A stretch of 64,000 bases of DNA, taken from positions 1-64,000 of the forward strand of contig CALWLH010000031.1 of the NCBI GenBank assembly GCA_944381475.1, read 5' to 3'. The notes beneath the pieces are model-generated. The model made no database searches and was not told where the DNA came from. It was given only the letters and a program-made list of their open reading frames with translations. Source of the DNA: an uncultured Lachnospiraceae bacterium. GTDB lineage: Bacteria; Bacillota; Clostridia; Lachnospirales; Lachnospiraceae. Each line of letters starts with the position of its first letter. Position 1 is the first letter of the stretch. This document shows positions 1,868 to 9,901 of this stretch, in pieces. Both the position numbers and the translations under genes were made by a program.

Positions 1868-1917
1868 GGGCGAGTCGCAAGGGCAATAGCCCTAAAGACA
1901 TCAAAATTTCATAATCT

Positions 1918-1990
1918 GCGCTTCTAGCTCAGTTGGTAGAGCACCTGACTCTTAATCAGGGTGTCCAGGGTTCGAGTCCCTGGAGGCGCA
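1918..1990 (+). tRNA. tRNA-Lys (anticodon CTT)
   Basis: A complete 73-nt cloverleaf. Acceptor arms GCGCTTC and GAGGCGC pair with one G-U. The anticodon stem CCTGA/TCAGG encloses loop CTCTTAA, giving anticodon CTT, which reads AAG. The T-arm is CAGGG-TTCGAGT-CCCTG. CCA is not encoded. It has its own promoter and terminator. A decayed accessory island starts right after it, as expected if the tRNA 3' end once served as an integration site. Confidence 0.97.
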
Positions 1991-1992
1991 CG

Positions 1993-2037
1993 AAAGCACT
2001 CCTTTGGTGGTTTTATGACACTGGGGGAGTGCTTTTT
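1993..2037 (+). terminator. Rho-independent terminator of tRNA-Lys
   Basis: AAAGCACTCC pairs with GGGAGTGCTTT across a loop of about 20 nt and is followed by a T-run (GCTTTTTCG). It directly follows the tRNA. Confidence 0.85.
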
Positions 2038-2039
2038 CG

Positions 2040-2640
2040 TCCTTATATACTTAGCTTATCAAGATGCGAAATATTATTCTGTGCCGCCAAAATGTCATAG
2101 GCGTAATGCAGATATTTTTAGGATAGGGGCTTCCGCCCCTAGCCCGCAATGAACCCCCTATGGCTATGTGGGGCGGTGATGCTGCCCCACATAGCCATAG
2201 GGGGTTCAAAGCTTCCGGCATCACCCCTCTCCCTTTTTACACGTTCTAAAAAATGAGCTTTTATCTCTGCCGCTAGGCTAAGAGAAAGCAAGCTAGATTC
2301 ATCATTTTCGCGGAATCCATCAAGCACCATCAAAAACTTTTTGACTACCCCGCAAAAATGCTGCGGGGTTGCTTGACTTTTCGAGTAGGGGATGGGACTT
2401 CTGCTCCGCCGAAGGGGAAGCTAGAAAAGATAAAATAAAACTCCCCTTCGGACTTCTATTATACCACCCCCTACTCAAAAAGGGGTGTATTGATAGTATG
2501 TAGATTAAGTGCCTCCGGCGGGCCTCTAAAAAAGCTAGAGGGTGCGAGCCGAGAGGATTTCGCCGAGCCGATAGGATTCTATAAGTTTAGAGGGGTGAGG
2601 GTTGGCTAGTTTTTGAAATGCACATGACAACTAGAAAATC
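2040..2640. other. Non-coding, hairpin-rich stretch of the decayed island
   Basis: No convincing gene is seen. The segment carries many inverted repeats: TAGGGGC/GCCCCTA (2123-2140), a 25-bp perfect palindrome (2150-2208, listed separately), CCCCGCA/TGCGGGG (about 2350-2374), GAGTAGGGG/CCCCTACTC (about 2385-2476) enclosing CCGAAGGGGA/TCCCCTTCGG (about 2409-2451), and CCTCTA/TAGAGG (about 2524-2541). Such clusters are typical of the ends or intergenic parts of conjugative elements, so I read it as remnant mobile DNA. Confidence 0.55.
2150..2208. repeat. 25-bp perfect inverted repeat with 9-nt loop
   Basis: Left arm 2150-2174 (TGAACCCCCTATGGC...) and right arm 2184-2208 are exact reverse complements, separated by GGTGATGCT. 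There is no T-run on either side, so it is not an ordinary terminator. It may be the end of a miniature mobile element or a protein-binding or structured RNA site. Confidence 0.8.
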
Positions 2641-2644
2641 AAAA

Positions 2645-2674
2645 AATACACCCTATTTCAAAATAGAGTGTATT
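2645..2674 (-). terminator. Terminator of the SprT-like fragment
   Basis: AATACAC-CTATTT pairs with AAATAG-GTGTATT, with one mismatch and a 2-nt loop. On the minus strand the stem is followed by a T-rich tract (TATTTTTTG). It sits right after the stop codon of the minus-strand fragment at 2682. Confidence 0.7.
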
Positions 2675-2681
2675 TCACGAA

Positions 2682-2990
2682 TTATGCTAAAATCATGGTT
2701 TCTTGACAATCACCACAAATGATATTTAAGTTTTTTGTAGCTCTAACCGAATTTCCGCAGCAAGGACAAATATACTTGCGAGTGCTAGAGGGTTTTCTTG
2801 CACTTGCACCAGTAGGTGTATCACCGCCGCTTAAAGTGCCTGGGGAGGGCGGAATGAAGCGGAATCCCTCATCACGATAAACCTTTATATCTTGCCAACC
2901 TTTATCGCATATATATAGAATTAAATCATCACTATTAAGATTGATAACATCATTAATATCGATTTTATAAAAGAGCGCAGAGAATTGCAC
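2682..2990 (-). pseudogene. 3' fragment of a SprT-like / zinc-ribbon mobile-element protein
   Basis: This minus-strand frame encodes about 102 residues with only a GTG as possible start and no ribosome site. Its C-terminus has the two-CxxC ribbon KYICPCCGNSVRATKN...CGDC, the tail that follows SprT-like metallopeptidase domains in many Clostridia mobile-element proteins. The upstream HExxH-bearing part is absent. The frame collides head-on with the truncated cas4 at about 2925-2990, so both genes lost their 5' ends at one recombination junction. The family call is from memory of the ribbon signature. Confidence 0.6.
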
Positions 2991-3269
2991 GAAGTAAAAA
3001 AGAGTAAAGCAATAGAAGAGGCTGGAATATGGCAGGTAAAGTATTACCTTTATTATCTGGAAGAGCGTGGCGTTTCGGAGCTAAAGGCCAAAATTGATTA
3101 TCCGTTGATTAAGGAAAACAGAACAGTGGAACTTACAGAAGAAGATCGAATTAGATTAAGAGAGATAATAGAGAAAATATACGAAATCCAGGATATGGAA
3201 CAGCCACCGGACAGTCGGGAGAGAAAAATTTGCCGCAAATGTGCCTGCCAGGATCTGTGTTTGATATAA
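2925..3269 (+). pseudogene. cas4: 5'-truncated cas4 (CRISPR adaptation nuclease)
   Basis: Cas4 is a RecB-like nuclease with an iron-sulfur cluster that trims pre-spacers for Cas1-Cas2. The C-terminal two-thirds remains: IDFI (probable metal-binding Asp), HEVKKS (the ExK motif), the QxxxY-type WQVKYYLYYL, and the C-terminal cluster CRKCACQDLC. The N-terminal part, with the first cluster Cys and about 70 residues, is missing. The open frame reaches a stop at 2922 with only a TTG at 2985 as possible start. The fragment is 14 nt upstream of cas1. It is probably non-functional, though a short product could still be made. Confidence 0.8.
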
Positions 3270-3283
3270 AGGGAGATAAATAA

Positions 3284-4276
3284 ATGAAGCAAAGCTTCTA
3301 TGCGTACAATAGTGGAGATTTAAAAAGAAAGGATAACACCTTGCGTTTTACATCCTATGAGGGGGTAAAAAGAGATATACCTATTGAACGAATTTCGGAT
3401 ATATACATTATGTCGGAAATGTCGTTCAATACAGCTTTTATTAATTTTATTTCGGAATATGGGATATCGCTGCATTTTTTTAATTATTATAACTATTATT
3501 CTGGGAGTTATTATCCGAGGGAAAGTTTGCTTGCAGGACAGTTGCTGGTAAATCAGGTTAATCATTACATAGACCCTTCAAAGCGGCTTGTAATCGCAAA
3601 GAGGATCATAGAAGCAGCATCCTATAATATATACCGAAATTTGCGTTACTATAATGGAAGAGGCAAGGACGTATCCCAGCAAATGATTGAGATTGACACA
3701 TTGCGAAAAAGAATTCCATATGCGTCTGCAATCGATGAATTAAGGGGAATAGAAGGAAATATCTGTAAATCTTATTATCAGGCTTGGAATTTAGTAGTAT
3801 GCCAGGAAATTAATTTCGATAAGCGAGTGATGCATCCTCCGGACAATATGATTAACTCACTTATATCTTTTGTAAATGCTCTCGTTTATTCCAAAACGTT
3901 AAGTGAAATATATCATACACAGTTAAATCCAACAATTAGCTATTTACATGAGCCGGGGGTAAGAAGGTACTCGCTGTGCTTGGATGTATCGGAGATATTT
4001 AAACCATTAATTGGGGATCGATTGATTTTTTCTTTGCTAAATCGAAAGCAGATTACGGAAGATAGTTTTACAAAGGAATTAAACTTTCTTCACTTGAAAA
4101 AAGAGGCTTCAAAGATGATTGTTTCGGAAATGGAAACCCGGCTAAAAAAGACAATATTGCATAGAGATTTGGAGAGACAGGTTTCCTATCAGTATTTGAT
4201 ACGCTTGGAGGCTTATAAATTGATCAAACATCTGATTGGGGAAAAGGAATATACTGGTTTTACAATATGGTGGTGA
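3284..4276 (+). CDS. cas1: CRISPR-associated integrase Cas1 (type I-B-like)
   Basis: A full-length 330-residue Cas1, the integrase that with Cas2 inserts spacers at the leader end of an array. The three metal ligands are visible: Glu157 in RGIEG, His222 in LHEPG, and Asp234 in LDVSEIFKPLIGDR. It has an N-terminal beta domain and a helical catalytic domain. The ATG at 3284 follows GGGAG (3271-3275). It is followed after 3 nt by cas2. The base composition is clearly more AT-rich than the surrounding chromosome, consistent with transfer. No effector genes (cas3, cas5, cas7, cas8) are near. The gene looks intact although its system is not. Confidence 0.92.
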   Translation: MKQSFYAYNSGDLKRKDNTLRFTSYEGVKRDIPIERISDIYIMSEMSFNTAFINFISEYGISLHFFNYYNYYSGSYYPRESLLAGQLLVNQVNHYIDPSKRLVIAKRIIEAASYNIYRNLRYYNGRGKDVSQQMIEIDTLRKRIPYASAIDELRGIEGNICKSYYQAWNLVVCQEINFDKRVMHPPDNMINSLISFVNALVYSKTLSEIYHTQLNPTISYLHEPGVRRYSLCLDVSEIFKPLIGDRLIFSLLNRKQITEDSFTKELNFLHLKKEASKMIVSEMETRLKKTILHRDLERQVSYQYLIRLEAYKLIKHLIGEKEYTGFTIWW

Positions 4277-4279
4277 GGT

Positions 4280-4558
4280 ATGTATATAGTTCTGGTATAT
4301 GATATTAGTTTAGAGAATAAGGGGCGTAGACGCTGGTCCCATGTGTTTAAAATATGCAAAAAGTATTTATCTCATATTCAAAATTCGGTTTTTGAGGGGG
4401 AATTATCAAAAGTTCAGCTGGTGAAACTTCGTCAGGAGCTAAAACCTTATAGTGACAAAGAATTAGATTCTGTCATTATTTTTAAAACGAGACAGGAAAA
4501 GTGGCTGGATAAAGAATTTTGGGGAAAAGAGGATGATAATACAAGCTATCTTATATGA
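4280..4558 (+). CDS. cas2: CRISPR-associated protein Cas2
   Basis: A 92-residue Cas2 of standard length with the beta-strand opener MYIVLVYDIS, where the conserved Asp sits. Family features such as RRRWSHVFKICKKYL and QNSVFEGEL are seen. It bridges two Cas1 dimers in the spacer-integration complex. It starts 3 nt after cas1, so the two are translationally coupled. The leader and the single CRISPR repeat follow directly. Confidence 0.92.
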   Translation: MYIVLVYDISLENKGRRRWSHVFKICKKYLSHIQNSVFEGELSKVQLVKLRQELKPYSDKELDSVIIFKTRQEKWLDKEFWGKEDDNTSYLI

Positions 4559-4734
4559 CTGTCGACCAAAGAAAAAGTAAAAACAAGGGGGAATCGACAG
4601 CGCCGAAACTTACATAATATAAAAAGGAAGAGCAATGCAGATATACAAAACAGAGAAATAAGTGTTGGTGAAGGGGAGAGATAGACAAAACATGTTTGAT
4701 TTAGTCATTAAAATAAGTGTTGTTTGGTGAACGG
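4559..4734 (+). promoter_or_regulatory. CRISPR leader region
   Basis: This AT-rich, non-coding stretch lies between cas2 and the CRISPR repeat, where a leader belongs. It opens with an interrupted inverted repeat CTGTCGA (4559-4565) / TCGACAG (4594-4600). It also holds a near-duplicated string AAATAAGTGTTG...GGTGAA at 4656-4676 and 4711-4732; the second copy abuts the repeat. The leader role is inferred from position. Confidence 0.65.
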
Positions 4735-4790
4735 GTTTTAATTGGTACATAGTGGAATGTAAATCCGCACATATCCCTCCGGAGGGGGCG
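4735..4790 (+). CRISPR. Solitary CRISPR repeat with truncated spacer
   Basis: The 30-bp unit 4735-4764 begins GTTTTAATTGG and ends TGGAATGTAAAT. It resembles clostridial type I-B repeats, which I recall as beginning GTTTTA and ending GGAATGTAAAT. It occurs once only. The next 26 bp (4765-4790, containing CCCTCCGGAGGG) have a quite different, GC-rich composition and end exactly at the IS terminal inverted repeat, so they could be a spacer cut short. With one repeat no array can be proven; the call rests on repeat sequence and position after cas2. Confidence 0.7.
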
Positions 4791-4841
4791 TGCGAACAAA
4801 TTCCTGGACTCCCTAAGGACTTTAAAAGGAGCTAAATCAGC

Positions 4842-5264
4842 ATGTATTCACGAAACAAGATCGATATTGCGTTAAAGGTGTATCATCAATGCGGTTCTGT
4901 AACTACCTCTATACGAGTTCTTGGATATCCAATTCAGAGAGCGCTTTACGCGTGGATAGCTAATGAAGGCTCAGTCAAACCCGACCAAAAACCTTTGAAG
5001 CATGTCAACACAGCAGAGCATCCCCGAAACCCCTCAGCAAAAGTCAAAATGGATACAATTCATCGTTGCTTTGAGCTCGGGGAGAATTTAAAATTTCTAT
5101 CAGAAGATATCGGTTATACCAGAGCCAGCATTTACAGCTGGCGGAAAAAATGTCTTCAGGAAGGCGCCGCTGCTCTGATGAATGAACCTAACACATTGAC
5201 AGAAGTTTTTTCCACATCCGCTCCTGAGCTGGCACAAATACAGATTCAGAGCCGGGATATGTAA
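4842..5264 (+). CDS. IS3-family transposase OrfA (helix-turn-helix subunit)
   Basis: A 140-residue protein with two helix-turn-helix-like segments, one near residues 15-45 and one at about 85-120 (ENLKFLSEDIGYTRASIYSW), as in OrfA of the IS3/IS150 group. OrfA binds the terminal repeats and is normally fused to OrfB by programmed frameshifting. AAGGAG lies just before the ATG. The frame looks intact, but without a working OrfB it cannot support transposition; at most it could bind element ends. Confidence 0.8.
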   Translation: MYSRNKIDIALKVYHQCGSVTTSIRVLGYPIQRALYAWIANEGSVKPDQKPLKHVNTAEHPRNPSAKVKMDTIHRCFELGENLKFLSEDIGYTRASIYSWRKKCLQEGAAALMNEPNTLTEVFSTSAPELAQIQIQSRDM

Positions 5265-6060
5265 ATGGAGATAGACATTTTAAAGGAGACCATCAATGTC
5301 TTAAAAAAGGCTCAGGCATCGATCAGACAGCTCTCAAAAACAGGGAGAAGGCAGTGATTATCGATGCCCTGAAGAATAAATATTCACTGACAGATTTACT
5401 AAAACGACTTGAATTTTCAAAGAGCCGTTATTATTATCAGGAAGCTGCCATGAAAAGATCAATACGTATGAGGATGTGCGTTACTGGGTAGGTCAGCTTT
5501 TTCATGAGAACAAGCAGCGCTATGGGGATCGGCATTATTAAGACGTAAAAATATCACCGCTTCAGAAGAAGTAATGCGTCAAATCATGTGAGGAGAAGAT
5601 CTTATTGCCAGCAGCAATCGGCGCAGGAAGTATAGTTCCTATCAGGGCGAGATATCCCCATCTGTACCCAGCAAAATAAAACGGGATTTTCATGCTGATA
5701 AGCCAAATCAGAAATGGTCCACCGACATCACAGAGTTTGCCCTTCCAGCTGGTAAGGTCTATCTTTGTGCACTTGTGGATTGCTTTGATGGCCGGCTTCC
5801 CAGTTGGACTATAAGCACGACGCCTGATGGCGTACTTGTGGAAATGATGCCTGATCAGGCAATATCTCAGCTGCAGAAAGGTGAACGGCCGCTCATACAT
5901 TCTGACAGGGACTGTCATTGCCGATGGTCAAGCTGGATAGAGCATATGGAAAATGCAGGTTTGGAGGAACCCGCATGCCGTATTATACAAAAGGATTAAA
6001 GTATCACTTGGAAATATGAGCCCTTGAGAGTATCGGCAGAGCCTTGGTATAGCTGTATAA
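5265..6060 (+). pseudogene. IS3-family transposase OrfB, frameshifted and deleted
   Basis: It starts at the ATG directly after the orfA stop (MEIDILKETINVLKKAQA) and then breaks into pieces in different frames. At about 5671-5998 an rve integrase-core part is legible (HADKPNQKWSTDITEFALPA, then VDCFDG and HSDRDCH). The last legible piece is KRIKVSLGNMSP...EYRQSLGIAV at 5989-6060. Between GLEEP and that tail about 60 residues are missing, including the region that normally carries the final Glu of the DDE triad. It is clearly inactive. Confidence 0.85.
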
Positions 6061-6128
6061 TCAGTCCAGGAAAATGTCCGCACCTCCCAGTCACCTCCAG
6101 CCATAAAAGTCATCCCCCCTCCCCCAGC

Positions 6129-6195
6129 CTTAAGAAAATCTTAATCTCTTTACAATGCTTTCTAAATTGACTTCCCGCCGCCCCATTGATATAAT
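6129..6195 (+). promoter_or_regulatory. Promoter of the glycosyltransferase, with 11-bp direct repeats
   Basis: TTGACT at 6167-6172 and TATAAT at 6190-6195 with 17-nt spacing, about 110 nt before the gene. Just upstream are CTTAAGAAAAT (6129-6139) and CTTAATCTCTT (6140-6150), two 11-bp units in tandem. Tandem 11-bp units are the format bound by OmpR/PhoB-type response regulators; that regulator class is an inference. Confidence 0.65.
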
Positions 6196-6306
6196 CCCAT
6201 CAAGCAAATAAAGCAATAATCCGCATATCATAGAATTAAAAAAGAAGCCTCCCCTCTGTCAGTTCAGAGCGGGATGCTTATGAAAGAACGGGGCAGGGGG
6301 AGAAAA

Positions 6307-7668
6307 ATGTTTTTTGAGCTGATAATGAATTTGTGCCGCATTGCACTTGTAATCATGGGCGGAATGTATGCCTATATGGCGGTCTATGTGGTTGTAGGTT
6401 TTTTTGCCACCAAAAAGTTTCCCGGGGCCAAGAAAATGCACCGCTATGGAATTGTCATTGCCGCCAGAAATGAGGAAAATGTGATCGGGCAGCTTCTGGA
6501 TAGTATTCACGCCCAGGATTACCCCGGGGAGCTTGTGACCACCTTTGTGGTGGCGGATAACTGTACCGATGCTACTGCCCAGGTGGCAAGGGCCCACGGG
6601 GCGGTGTGCTATGAGCGCTTTGACAGTCGCCGCTGCACCAAGGGCTATGCCATGCAGTTTCTATTTGAGCATCTTTTCAGAGATTATGGAAAGGATGCCT
6701 TTGAGGCGTTTATTATGCTGGATGCGGATAATCTGCTGAAGGAGGATTATATCAGCCGGATGAATGACGCCTTTGACGCAGGAGAAAAGATCGTAACCTC
6801 TTATCGAAACACGAAGAATTTGGAAAACAGCTGCATCGCCGCATCCTATGCCTTTCACTGGATGAGAACCTGTCGCTGTGAAAACCGGGCAAAATCCATC
6901 TTACATACAGCCTGCCGTGTTCAGGGCACAGGCTTTCTCTTTGCCGCGGAGTTGGTGGAGAATGGCTGGAATTATACGAATCTTACAGAGGACCGGTCCT
7001 TCTGCGCGGATGCGGTGGCAAAAGGCTATCGCATTTCCTATCAGGATGCGGCGCAGTTCTATGACGAGCAGCCGGAAAGCCTGTCCATCGCCTTCCGACA
7101 GAGAAAACGGTGGGCAAAGGGGCATCTGCAGGCGTTTGTGTCCTTTGGGCCCGCATTGTTTGCCAGAATATTTAAATCCCTGATACCGTCGAAATGCGCT
7201 TCATTTTCTCCGGAGATGAATATGGAGCGAAAGACACAGCTAAGAGGAGGCAGGAGGCTTCTGGGCTGTCTGCATGACGCCTTTATGTGCTATGATATGT
7301 TTGCTATTACGCTGCCAAAGGCACTGCTGTCAGTGTGTGTGAAGCTGCTGGAGATCCTGGCCTGTATGGGGCTGATTCTGACAGCCGGAAGGCCCGCAAG
7401 CCTGCTGACGCTGCTGCTTGGGGGCTTCATGCTTTCATTTGCAAAAAGCTGCCTTGGAAATATCCTGACTGCCGCCTACCTGCTGGTGACGGAGCATGAC
7501 CGTTTGCCGAGGCTGACATTAGGCCGGATGCTGGCTTACTGCGTTACATTTCCCATTTTTGATATTATAGGGAAAATTACATATTGTATGGCGGCGGTTA
7601 TGCGGGTGGAGTGGAAGCCCATTCCCCATAACGCTGTGACGGCAAAGCATCTTGCGGCCAGCCGATGA
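6307..7668 (+). CDS. Processive family-2 glycosyltransferase, membrane-bound
   Basis: A 453-residue GT2 enzyme of the cellulose/hyaluronan synthase-like type. An N-terminal membrane segment (about residues 8-35) is followed by a GT-A catalytic domain with the nucleotide-sugar motif DADN at 139-142 and the processivity motif QRKRW at 265-269, then C-terminal membrane helices. Such enzymes polymerise a sugar and often extrude the chain; product and donor cannot be told. The ATG at 6307 is chosen over 6274 because AGGGGGAG lies just before it. It has its own promoter with putative response-regulator repeats and no partner genes, and ends in a terminator shared with mtnN. Confidence 0.85.
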   Translation: MFFELIMNLCRIALVIMGGMYAYMAVYVVVGFFATKKFPGAKKMHRYGIVIAARNEENVIGQLLDSIHAQDYPGELVTTFVVADNCTDATAQVARAHGAVCYERFDSRRCTKGYAMQFLFEHLFRDYGKDAFEAFIMLDADNLLKEDYISRMNDAFDAGEKIVTSYRNTKNLENSCIAASYAFHWMRTCRCENRAKSILHTACRVQGTGFLFAAELVENGWNYTNLTEDRSFCADAVAKGYRISYQDAAQFYDEQPESLSIAFRQRKRWAKGHLQAFVSFGPALFARIFKSLIPSKCASFSPEMNMERKTQLRGGRRLLGCLHDAFMCYDMFAITLPKALLSVCVKLLEILACMGLILTAGRPASLLTLLLGGFMLSFAKSCLGNILTAAYLLVTEHDRLPRLTLGRMLAYCVTFPIFDIIGKITYCMAAVMRVEWKPIPHNAVTAKHLAASR

Positions 7669-7676
7669 AAGGAGCT

Positions 7677-7700
7677 GGAGCCCCGAAGGGGCTCCTTTGC
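7677..7700. terminator. Terminator between glycosyltransferase and mtnN
   Basis: GGAGCCCC (7677-7684), loop GAA, GGGGCTCC (7688-7695), then TTT. It lies between two convergent genes and can serve both strands. Confidence 0.8.
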
Positions 7701-7705
7701 TGATC

Positions 7706-8398
7706 TCAAATATTGGAGACAAATTCCCTGAGGATATCAACAGAATTTTTGATGGCCATAGCCTCAAAGGTGGGATAGTCCATGGTGGCGCTGTTGTCCG
7801 CCTTGTCGGAAATTGCCCGCAGAATCAGGAAGGGCACATGGTTCAGGTAGGCTGTCTGGGCAATGGCGGCGCCCTCCATCTCCGTACACAGAGCGTCAAA
7901 ATTCTGTTTGATTCTGTCCTTTGCCCCCTGATCGGAGATAAACTGATCTCCGCTGACAATCCGCCCTACATGTACCCGCAGGTTTGGGGTGGCCTTTGCG
8001 CAGGCGATTTGGGCAACTGCCAGGAGATGCGGATCCGCCTTAAAGGAAAGGGTGTCCATGCGGGGAATCTGTCCCGGCGGATAGCCAAAGCCTGTGGCAT
8101 CCATATCGTGGTGGAGAATATCCCTGCTCAGCACGATGTCGCCGATGTCAATTTCTGCCTGAAGGGAACCGGCGATGCCGGTGTTGATTACCGCATCCAC
8201 GTTAAAATGGCCGCACAGGATCTGCGTGCAGACCGCCGCATTGACCTTGCCGATGCCGCTGCGCACGATCACCACATCCTTGCCGCCCAGCTTTCCCCTG
8301 TTAAACTCCATGTTCGCCTTTTGGCAGACTTCTTCCCTGTGCATTTCGCTGACGATTTGAGAAACCTCCTCGTCCATGGCGCCGATGATTCCAATCAT
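7706..8398 (-). CDS. mtnN: 5'-methylthioadenosine / S-adenosylhomocysteine nucleosidase
   Basis: A 230-residue enzyme of typical length that cleaves adenine from MTA and SAH, supporting methionine salvage and removal of SAH inhibition after methylation. The N-terminus MIGIIGAMDEEV, the GIAGSL phosphorylase-fold loop, the substrate-site motif MEGAA and the catalytic RAISDKAD are all present. The start at 8398 follows GGAGGAGC; the longer frame to 8467 lacks such a site. It is read from the same strand as the DUF815 gene, 91 nt downstream of it, and may share its transcript. Confidence 0.95.
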   Translation of the reverse strand: MIGIIGAMDEEVSQIVSEMHREEVCQKANMEFNRGKLGGKDVVIVRSGIGKVNAAVCTQILCGHFNVDAVINTGIAGSLQAEIDIGDIVLSRDILHHDMDATGFGYPPGQIPRMDTLSFKADPHLLAVAQIACAKATPNLRVHVGRIVSGDQFISDQGAKDRIKQNFDALCTEMEGAAIAQTAYLNHVPFLILRAISDKADNSATMDYPTFEAMAIKNSVDILREFVSNI

Positions 8399-8489
8399 AT
8401 AAGCTCCTCCTATATGTAATGAATTGATAGTAATTTCAAGACGTTCTTGCATTCCCTTTTTGCGCAAAAACTAATCCGCAAAGGGGCGT

Positions 8490-9800
8490 TTATGCATGAA
8501 TGCCCTGAAGATAGATGATAAACTGCTGGGCCGTCCGTCCGGAGATGCCTCCGTGGGAAAGCTCCCATTTGTTGGCTTCCTTCTTTAGATCCTCATCACT
8601 CATGGTGATTCCGGCCTTTCTTGCCAGCCCGATCACGATATCAAAATATTCCTTCTGACTGGGTTTGGAGTAGCAGATGGTGACGCCGAAGCGGTTTACC
8701 AATGAGAGCATTTCCTCCATGGTGTCGGAGCGGTGCATGCCGTTATCCTGCTCCATGTCATCCCGGTCATTCCAGGTTTCCTTGATCAGGTGCCTCCGGT
8801 TGGAGGTGGCATAGATGAGGATGTTTTCGGGCTTTGTCTCCACACCGCCCTCAATGACAGCCTTTAAAAACTTGTACTCAATCTCGAATTCCTCAAAGGA
8901 CAGATCGTCCATGTAGATGATGAATTTATAGTTGCGGTTCTTGATGCGGGCTATGACGGCGGACAGGTCCCGGAACTGGTGCTTGTAGATCTCGATCATG
9001 CGCAGCCCCTGGTCATAAAATTCATTGACAATGGCCTTGATACTGGTGGATTTTCCCGTTCCGCTGTCGCCAAAGAGCAGTACATTGTTTGCCCTGCGTC
9101 CTTCCACAAAGGCCCTTGTGTTCTCCACAAGCTTTGCCTTCTGGATTTCGTAGCCGATCAGGTCGGAGAGCATCACCTTTTCCATATTATTGATGGGAAG
9201 GAAGTGAAGGCTGCCCCCGTTCTGGTCACTGCTGATGCGGAATGCCTTGTTCAGTCCGAACATTCCCACGCCGTAGGCCTTGTAAAAGCCTGTAACCTCC
9301 GTAAAAAAGCTGTCCCTATCCTCACACCGTTCCAGGCGTCTGCTTAAGGTCTGAACCTTTTCGCTCACATTGTGGTTATACATCAGCTCCGGTTTTCCGA
9401 TGGCGTGATAGCTTGACAAAATGGAAAAGCACCGGGTGCCGAGCTGCTCCTCCAGCCAGGAAAAATCATAGTTGAACAGGGCGTGGAAGGCACCAAAATC
9501 ATTTTTGGCAAATTCGTTGACACTGCCGTCGCTGGCGCCCACCTTTTCGCATGTGACGCTGAAAGGATTCTCGTCGGTTATAAGAAGAAATGTCAGATAG
9601 TTGTGCCAAAGATTTTCGTCAAAGCCATAGTCCGTGGCCAGGGACAGCAGGCGTTTTACCTGGCTGTAAACATCTGTCAGCAGCTCGTCCTTGTTTCTTG
9701 CCTTGCTCTTAGCATCTGCGCAGATCTGCGCAAGCTGCATCAGAATGCTGTCCTTTGGCATACTGCCGTAAAGAATCAGCTTTGATATAATATGGTCCAT
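8490..9800 (-). CDS. DUF815-family AAA+ ATPase
   Basis: A 436-residue protein. The C-terminal half is an ATPase with Walker [10 protein letters not shown] at about residue 245 and Walker B-like [11 protein letters not shown] about 50 residues later, plus an arginine-rich RNRYG-like lid ([14 protein letters not shown]). The N-terminal half is helical and unrecognised. This matches the DUF815 family, widespread in Gram-positives and proteobacteria with no firm role that I know. It has a good promoter at 9902-9930. The neighbouring mtnN gives no clue to its function. Confidence 0.85.
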
Positions 9801-9901
9801 TGCGTTGTCCTCCCGTTTGAATCTACCGTCCGGTTCAGCATGTAAAATTTTATCCGGAAACCTCCATGTGCTGCCCGGCGCGGATTTTATGTATGGGTAC
9901 C

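Follow-up and report, generated by a model that had tools for sequence, protein, structure and literature searches.

How does a CRISPR locus come to be left with one repeat, right beside a decayed IS element? The question is raised by a 64,000-nucleotide stretch of an uncultured Lachnospiraceae genome, referred to below as the window (genome G000, contig C31, positions 1–64000), which belongs to a draft assembly of 2.69 Mb in 147 contigs with a completeness of 97.5. An initial annotation of the window had proposed that the IS erased the rest of the array and that the deletion stopped inside the first spacer. The repeat, the neighboring cas genes, the ends of the IS, the short gap between repeat and IS, and the surrounding site were compared with related loci and with other copies of the element. 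The features are listed in Table 1.

Table 1. Features of the CRISPR remnant and its surroundings (window coordinates)
Feature	Position	Strand	Remarks
tRNA-Lys (anticodon ctt)	1918..1991	+	ARAGORN; Rfam tRNA 70.1 bits; anchor of the variable site
cas4 remnant	2934..3269	+	About 56 N-terminal codons gone; sole listed start TTG at 2985
cas1, type I-B	3284..4276	+	Open frame, 330 aa
cas2	4280..4558	+	Open frame, 92 aa; NCBIfam cas2; PADLOC Cas2b 4.1e-39
Leader	4559..4734	+	176 bp; shares GTCGAC-type motifs on alignment with six relatives
CRISPR repeat, leader-proximal	4735..4764	+	30 bp; sole copy found
Gap between repeat and IS	4765..4785		21 bp, or 16 bp if the longer IS ends apply
CCTCC, left copy	4776..4780		Candidate duplication, GAG-class model only
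IS3-family relic	4786..6087 (core model) or 4781–6093 (GAG-class model)	+	
CCTCC, right copy	6094..6098		Candidate duplication, GAG-class model only
Glycosyltransferase gene	6274..7668	+	First gene past the IS; Pfam PF13641 4.9e-22

A single canonical repeat

The window holds one copy of the repeat, and this is also the sole copy found in the whole assembly (one forward and no reverse match at ≤3 mismatches); a reversed-pattern control gave no match in the same assembly. Neither beyond the IS nor elsewhere in the 2.69 Mb was a further repeat found at this threshold. The claim of a single repeat is thereby borne out, and a search for the rest of the array elsewhere, as the initial annotation had suggested, yielded no other repeat.

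For comparison, 22 loci with a related cas1 were used, namely 21 scan loci (47–80% Cas1 identity) and the locus of genome G011. Allowing up to eight substitutions, arrays of 5–117 similar repeats were present in nine of them, a single match in four and none in the remaining nine. Because arrays of similar repeats occur in nine of these 22 loci, the window repeat is taken as real; judged by this resemblance, it is a genuine type I-B CRISPR repeat. The arrays lie 3' of cas1 in 7/9 cases and 5' of it in L037 and L041. In three of the four single-match loci the contig breaks off 0, 1 or 5 bases past the repeat, and in the fourth (L043) the match lies 2.3 kb beyond cas1. The distance from cas1 to the repeat is 458 bp in the window, compared to 461–491 bp in nine relatives and 611 bp in a tenth (G011). 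As this spacing is like that of the relatives, the window repeat is the leader-proximal one.

The cas genes and the loss on the cas4 side

The cas4 remnant matches positions 68–159 of the 160 positions of Pfam Cas_Cas4 and PADLOC Cas4b (4.1e-33); stop codons lie upstream of 2934, and the 169-aa Cas4 of G011 served as a visual reference for the remnant. Cas1 scores 430.8 bits against the I-B model NCBIfam TIGR03641 (cut-off 304.1). With the Cas3 of G011 as query, no match was obtained in the window's own genome, while the same search was positive in 4/4 control genomes. Of the effector genes, this genome-wide search covered cas3. A type I-B system calls for effector genes, at least cas3, and for an array in which a spacer lies between two or more repeats; the genome holds no cas3 match and one repeat in 2.69 Mb (≤3 mismatches). 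What is left in the window is a ruined type I-B CRISPR-Cas locus and not a minimal system. On the side of the truncated cas4, no IS end was found among the best 25 IS-end matches in the window.

Three Cas1 substitutions (M154R, R161C, and I171V) affect sites that do not vary among 20 other sequences; such substitutions number 0–1 in the ten closest relatives and 0–4 overall. Cas2 carries one substitution at invariant sites, compared to 0–3 in the others. M154R and R161C flank the GIEGN motif of Cas1, which holds a catalytic glutamate. Their position beside this motif possibly indicates early decay of Cas1, and the Cas1 substitutions at invariant sites would speak against strong selection on the cas genes.

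On the minus strand, a zinc-ribbon-like frame (window 2682–2990), the start of which overlaps the cas4 remnant, has no Pfam or NCBIfam match; it resembles the tail of a mobile-element gene.

The IS3-family relic and its ends

Four separate pieces of the relic can be aligned with the intact 466-aa IS3-family transposase of genome G052, which scores 378 bits against NCBIfam NF033516 (cut-off 160); the OrfA piece of the window alone reaches 22.9 and stays under the cut-off. The relic has lost some 140 bp in one deletion, changes frame two to three times, and contains up to three stops, although OrfA could naturally end at the first of these. The inverted repeats (26 nt, 81% complementary) are the second pair listed in 1900–9900. 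Matches to the IS were found in 1,545 plasmid records, all at 60–80% identity and none over more than 80% of the query, with a coverage of 9–11% in the 20 listed rows, and in one phage record, which covers 9%. About five lesions in the IS stand against none in about 1.3 kb of cas1 and cas2, an imbalance with a chance near 0.03 by simple arithmetic if lesions fall evenly. Either selection preserved the cas genes once the event had taken place, or the IS was dead by then. Elsewhere in the genome (L026:905-1041, on contig C59) lies a relic of the same IS, the interior of which is gone, so that the right end follows the start of OrfA almost at once.

The ends of the element were placed by means of a consensus of 29 ends from other copies, including two in the window's own genome. 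A core, GGGG[GA]TGCGGACA, is conserved in 24–29 of the 29 ends per column; by hand count, 13/29 ends carry a full GAG at -9 to -7. The ends given by the initial annotation (4791 on the left, 6082 on the right) fall within the inverted repeat, and the conserved core puts them further out. The distance from repeat to IS, previously 26 bp, accordingly shrinks to 16–21 bp.

Target duplication in the IS3 family amounts to 3–5 bp, and two placements of the ends were examined for it by comparing the window copy with seven other two-ended copies; a mosaic copy in G015 was left out. At the core ends (4786–6087) the flanks read AGG and CAG, without duplication. Three of the seven other copies show 3-bp repeats at offset 4/4 (GGT in G347, CAG in G179, and AAA on an Enterococcus plasmid), compared to 2/56 mismatched pairings in the control at offset 4. 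One copy (G598, TTC) has a 3-bp repeat at offset 9/9, one each was seen at offsets 11 and 12, and the copy in G052 has an 8-bp repeat at 7/9. GAG is absent from the three offset-4 copies, present on both sides in G598 and on one side in G052. The window IS ends read GGAGGGGGC and GACTGGGAG and resemble the GAG class, a class with longer ends to which the window copy may belong. At the ends of that class (4781–6093) the IS is flanked by the 5-bp CCTCC at offset 9/10.

A match of at least 5 bp occurred in 1/56 mismatched pairings. With narrow offsets, controls on the C-rich right flank reached at least 5 bp in 2.4% of cases for random window DNA, in 8% for the shuffled flank, and in 13% for C-matched sequence; with wide offsets the shares were 7%, 15%, and 19%, respectively. 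Repeat lengths within the GAG class disagree (3, 5, 8). The absence of a target duplication, as initially reported, is therefore plausible but not secure: it stands at the better-backed core ends, and the longer ends give a candidate duplication, CCTCC, an outcome that the initial annotation had counted against its own proposal and that is weak against controls of 2–19%. As a caution, an IS takes on the look of an agent or of a bystander according to how its ends are set.

Across L077, L102, L103, L120, and L100, the IS group itself seems to be split into two end classes, one without GAG and with 3-bp repeats at the core ends, the other with GAG and with repeats further out.

The gap between repeat and IS

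All 495 spacers in the arrays of six relatives measure 34–39 bp, and the gap of 16–21 bp is shorter than every one of them. The earlier remark that it is shorter than a usual I-B spacer thus holds, and by its length the gap does not qualify as a whole spacer. The match to phage or plasmid sequence that might have been hoped for was not obtained on the viral side: neither the 25-mer 4765–4789 nor a 21-mer including the last three repeat bases has an exact match in IMG/VR, so that a spacer origin of the gap finds no viral counterpart there. The one IMG/VR match of a 16-mer was taken as chance, as the identity ends at 16 bases; the reversed control gave none, and the frames of the matching contig show no visible tie to this host.

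Other origins of the gap were also considered. A dispersed repeat was rejected, the 29-mer 4766–4794 being unique in the own genome (≤3 mismatches). An array trailer was likewise rejected, the exact 25-mer occurring in 7/113 loci, all from the window's own region. At ≤3 mismatches the 16-mer has seven matches, counted wherever they lie relative to arrays, in 125 other loci (134 minus nine of the own region); three of the seven sit in overlapping loci of one place. The sequence after the last repeat found in six arrays is unlike the window gap.

Together with the left end of the IS, the gap forms a palindrome, CGCAC..CCCTCCGGAGGG..GTGCG, the outer half of which resembles an outward-facing IS end. 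Read outward, the gap gives GAGGGATAT-GTGCGGA, and so has the frame GAG + 6 + GTGCGGA in common with IS ends. In a weight matrix built from the 29 ends, the gap site scores 6.5 and ranks 83 of 127,968 window positions, or about 0.02 if some 30 places near the repeat are allowed; the accepted left end, in an ungapped reading, scores only 7.6 in the same matrix and the right end 16.7. The gap site could be a second IS end, a target resembling an IS end, or chance. A fold as stable as the palindrome was found in 218/20,000 random 30-mers, in 803/20,000 random 16-mers placed before the fixed IS end, and in 5,970/20,000 shuffles of the left 16 bp, and the window contains 28 perfect palindromes of at least 12 bp. 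Since shuffles fold as stably and palindromes are common in the window, the palindrome alone proves little.

The site in congeners

Region 2600–6300 has no match in the congeners G001, G002, and G003 (completeness 76, 98, and 71, respectively), and CRISPR locus and IS are both absent from the three at this site. In all of them the tRNA-Lys is followed by an AAA-ATPase gene in the same direction, and in G002 and G003 a small frame (window 10069) comes next. In the window the AAA-ATPase gene (8490–9800) is inverted and displaced by about 6.5 kb compared to the three congeners, and between it and the tRNA-Lys lie the cas genes, the IS, the glycosyltransferase gene, and one more gene. The inversion indicates that the site has been rearranged more than once, and the lone repeat marks one breakpoint among several at this unstable place. 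For the right flank (6093–6273), the best match in other loci, with ten loci of the own region excluded, has an E value of 0.23. The tRNA end was rejected as an island boundary, no second copy being found in the window (≤3 mismatches).

Three further elements lie in this part of the window: a perfect inverted repeat of 25 bp around a 9-nt loop in the gene-poor stretch past the tRNA-Lys (2150–2208), a Clostridiales-1 sRNA match on the minus strand (1–118) with similar sequence at many places of the own genome, and a short GC-rich element of REP-like look (653–706) with at least 13 further matches in the own genome.

How the array may have been lost

That the array was lost beside the IS is supported by these data. 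The account that we rank first, while granting it rather less than an even chance, is that the IS landed in a spacer and that the array beyond it was deleted from the right end of the IS. The IS3-family element, then active, would have inserted within a spacer 16–21 bp past a repeat. A deletion from its right end would have taken the remaining spacer and all repeats beyond, so that the IS came to adjoin the DNA that precedes the glycosyltransferase gene. Had the insertion hit a spacer other than the first, repeat-repeat recombination would have reduced the leader-side repeats to one. On the opposite side, a separate loss would have removed the effector genes together with the front of cas4, and decay of the IS would have followed. 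One canonical repeat survives in full, correctly spaced from cas1, and none is found beyond the IS. The gap, being shorter than every measured spacer, fits a broken spacer as an insertion would leave it, and the unlike flanks AGG and CAG at the best-supported ends are expected if one flank was replaced. Against this order of events stand the CCTCC at the longer ends, the wrecked state of the IS next to open cas1 and cas2, the gap without a viral match, and the loss on the cas4 side, where no IS end was recognized; the inverted AAA-ATPase gene, a sign of more than one rearrangement, also counts against the IS as the remover of the array. Of the original proposal, the loss of the array beside the IS thus holds up, the IS as its remover is ranked first and tentatively so, and an IS lying inside a spacer agrees with the gap, although the spacer need not have been the first.

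The strongest of the rivals, if on balance an unlikely one, is that the array collapsed by its own repeat-repeat recombination, of which one repeat is the natural end state, and that the IS, a bystander, had inserted just past the last repeat and duplicated CCTCC. The rarity of 5-bp matches among mismatched pairings speaks for it, as does the likeness of the window ends to the GAG class, in which G598 and G052 carry their repeats further out. The flank controls, the lack of a duplication at the core ends, and the disagreeing repeat lengths of that class weigh on the other side; moreover, the IS would have to lie within 16 bp of the far end of the array. The last repeat found is degenerate in some arrays (L035), whereas the window repeat is canonical, and the few matches of the 16 bp outside the own region, together with the unlike sequence after other arrays, do not point to such a position. 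Deletion linked to the IS is ranked above this collapse because the two-ended copies back the shorter IS ends better. Less probable again is a passive juxtaposition, in which an unrelated deletion or inversion brought the lone repeat to about 20 bp before an already dead IS. The decay of the IS beside open cas genes, the displaced AAA-ATPase gene, the independent truncation of cas4, and the unlike core-model flanks would all suit it, but a breakpoint so near the IS end would be a coincidence. An artefact of assembly or binning, either a contig misjoin or the compression of a longer array at a point that assemblers mishandle, is more doubtful still. The assembly is a draft, and the contig stops within five bases (0, 1 or 5) of the leader repeat in 3/10 relatives; on the other hand, no other repeat is present in the assembly, and the window's contig continues to 77 kb.

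The remaining weight is given to readings outside these four. Very improbably, the palindrome is the remnant of two IS3-family ends back to back (CTC-CG-GAG), that is, of an IR-IR junction at the leader-proximal repeat, from which a deletion would have swept away the array along with one copy of the IS. Such a deletion would have been aided by the resemblance between IS end and repeat edge. If true, this would mean an adaptation module left blind but still readable; if an IR-IR junction consuming an array were shown, it would offer a concrete route for transposons to disarm CRISPR.

Comparison with known systems

The closest complete counterpart is the type I-B locus on contig C5 of G011, with the order cas3-cas4-cas1-cas2-leader-repeat, in which the genes ahead of cas4 are putatively named from their order. 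The window shares cas1, cas2, leader, repeat, and their spacing with it but lacks cas3 and the front of cas4, and has one repeat and no complete spacer. The relic, in turn, shares inverted repeats and a transposase homology in pieces with IS3-family elements (NF033516) such as the intact relative in G052, and differs from the latter by its stops, frame changes, and deletion; it is inactive.

In Staphylococcus epidermidis RP62a, 13/16 large deletions were transposon-facilitated, alongside repeat-to-repeat losses of one, two or three spacers (PMC3784566). An IS at or near the edge of the lost CRISPR region and the loss of spacers between repeats, both within that one study, recall the window; there the deletion was shown against the parent strain, whereas in the window it is a proposal. 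In E. coli Crooks, an IS inside a CRISPR array is recorded (PMC3032704). IR-IR junctions of IS30 are described as deletion-prone (PMC9333248), and the two outward-facing, IS-end-like sequences that nearly abut in the window resemble such a junction, except that the second end is a partial match only. CRISPR loss via deletions and IS elements is already documented, and the window holds a fossil example of this known kind of event.
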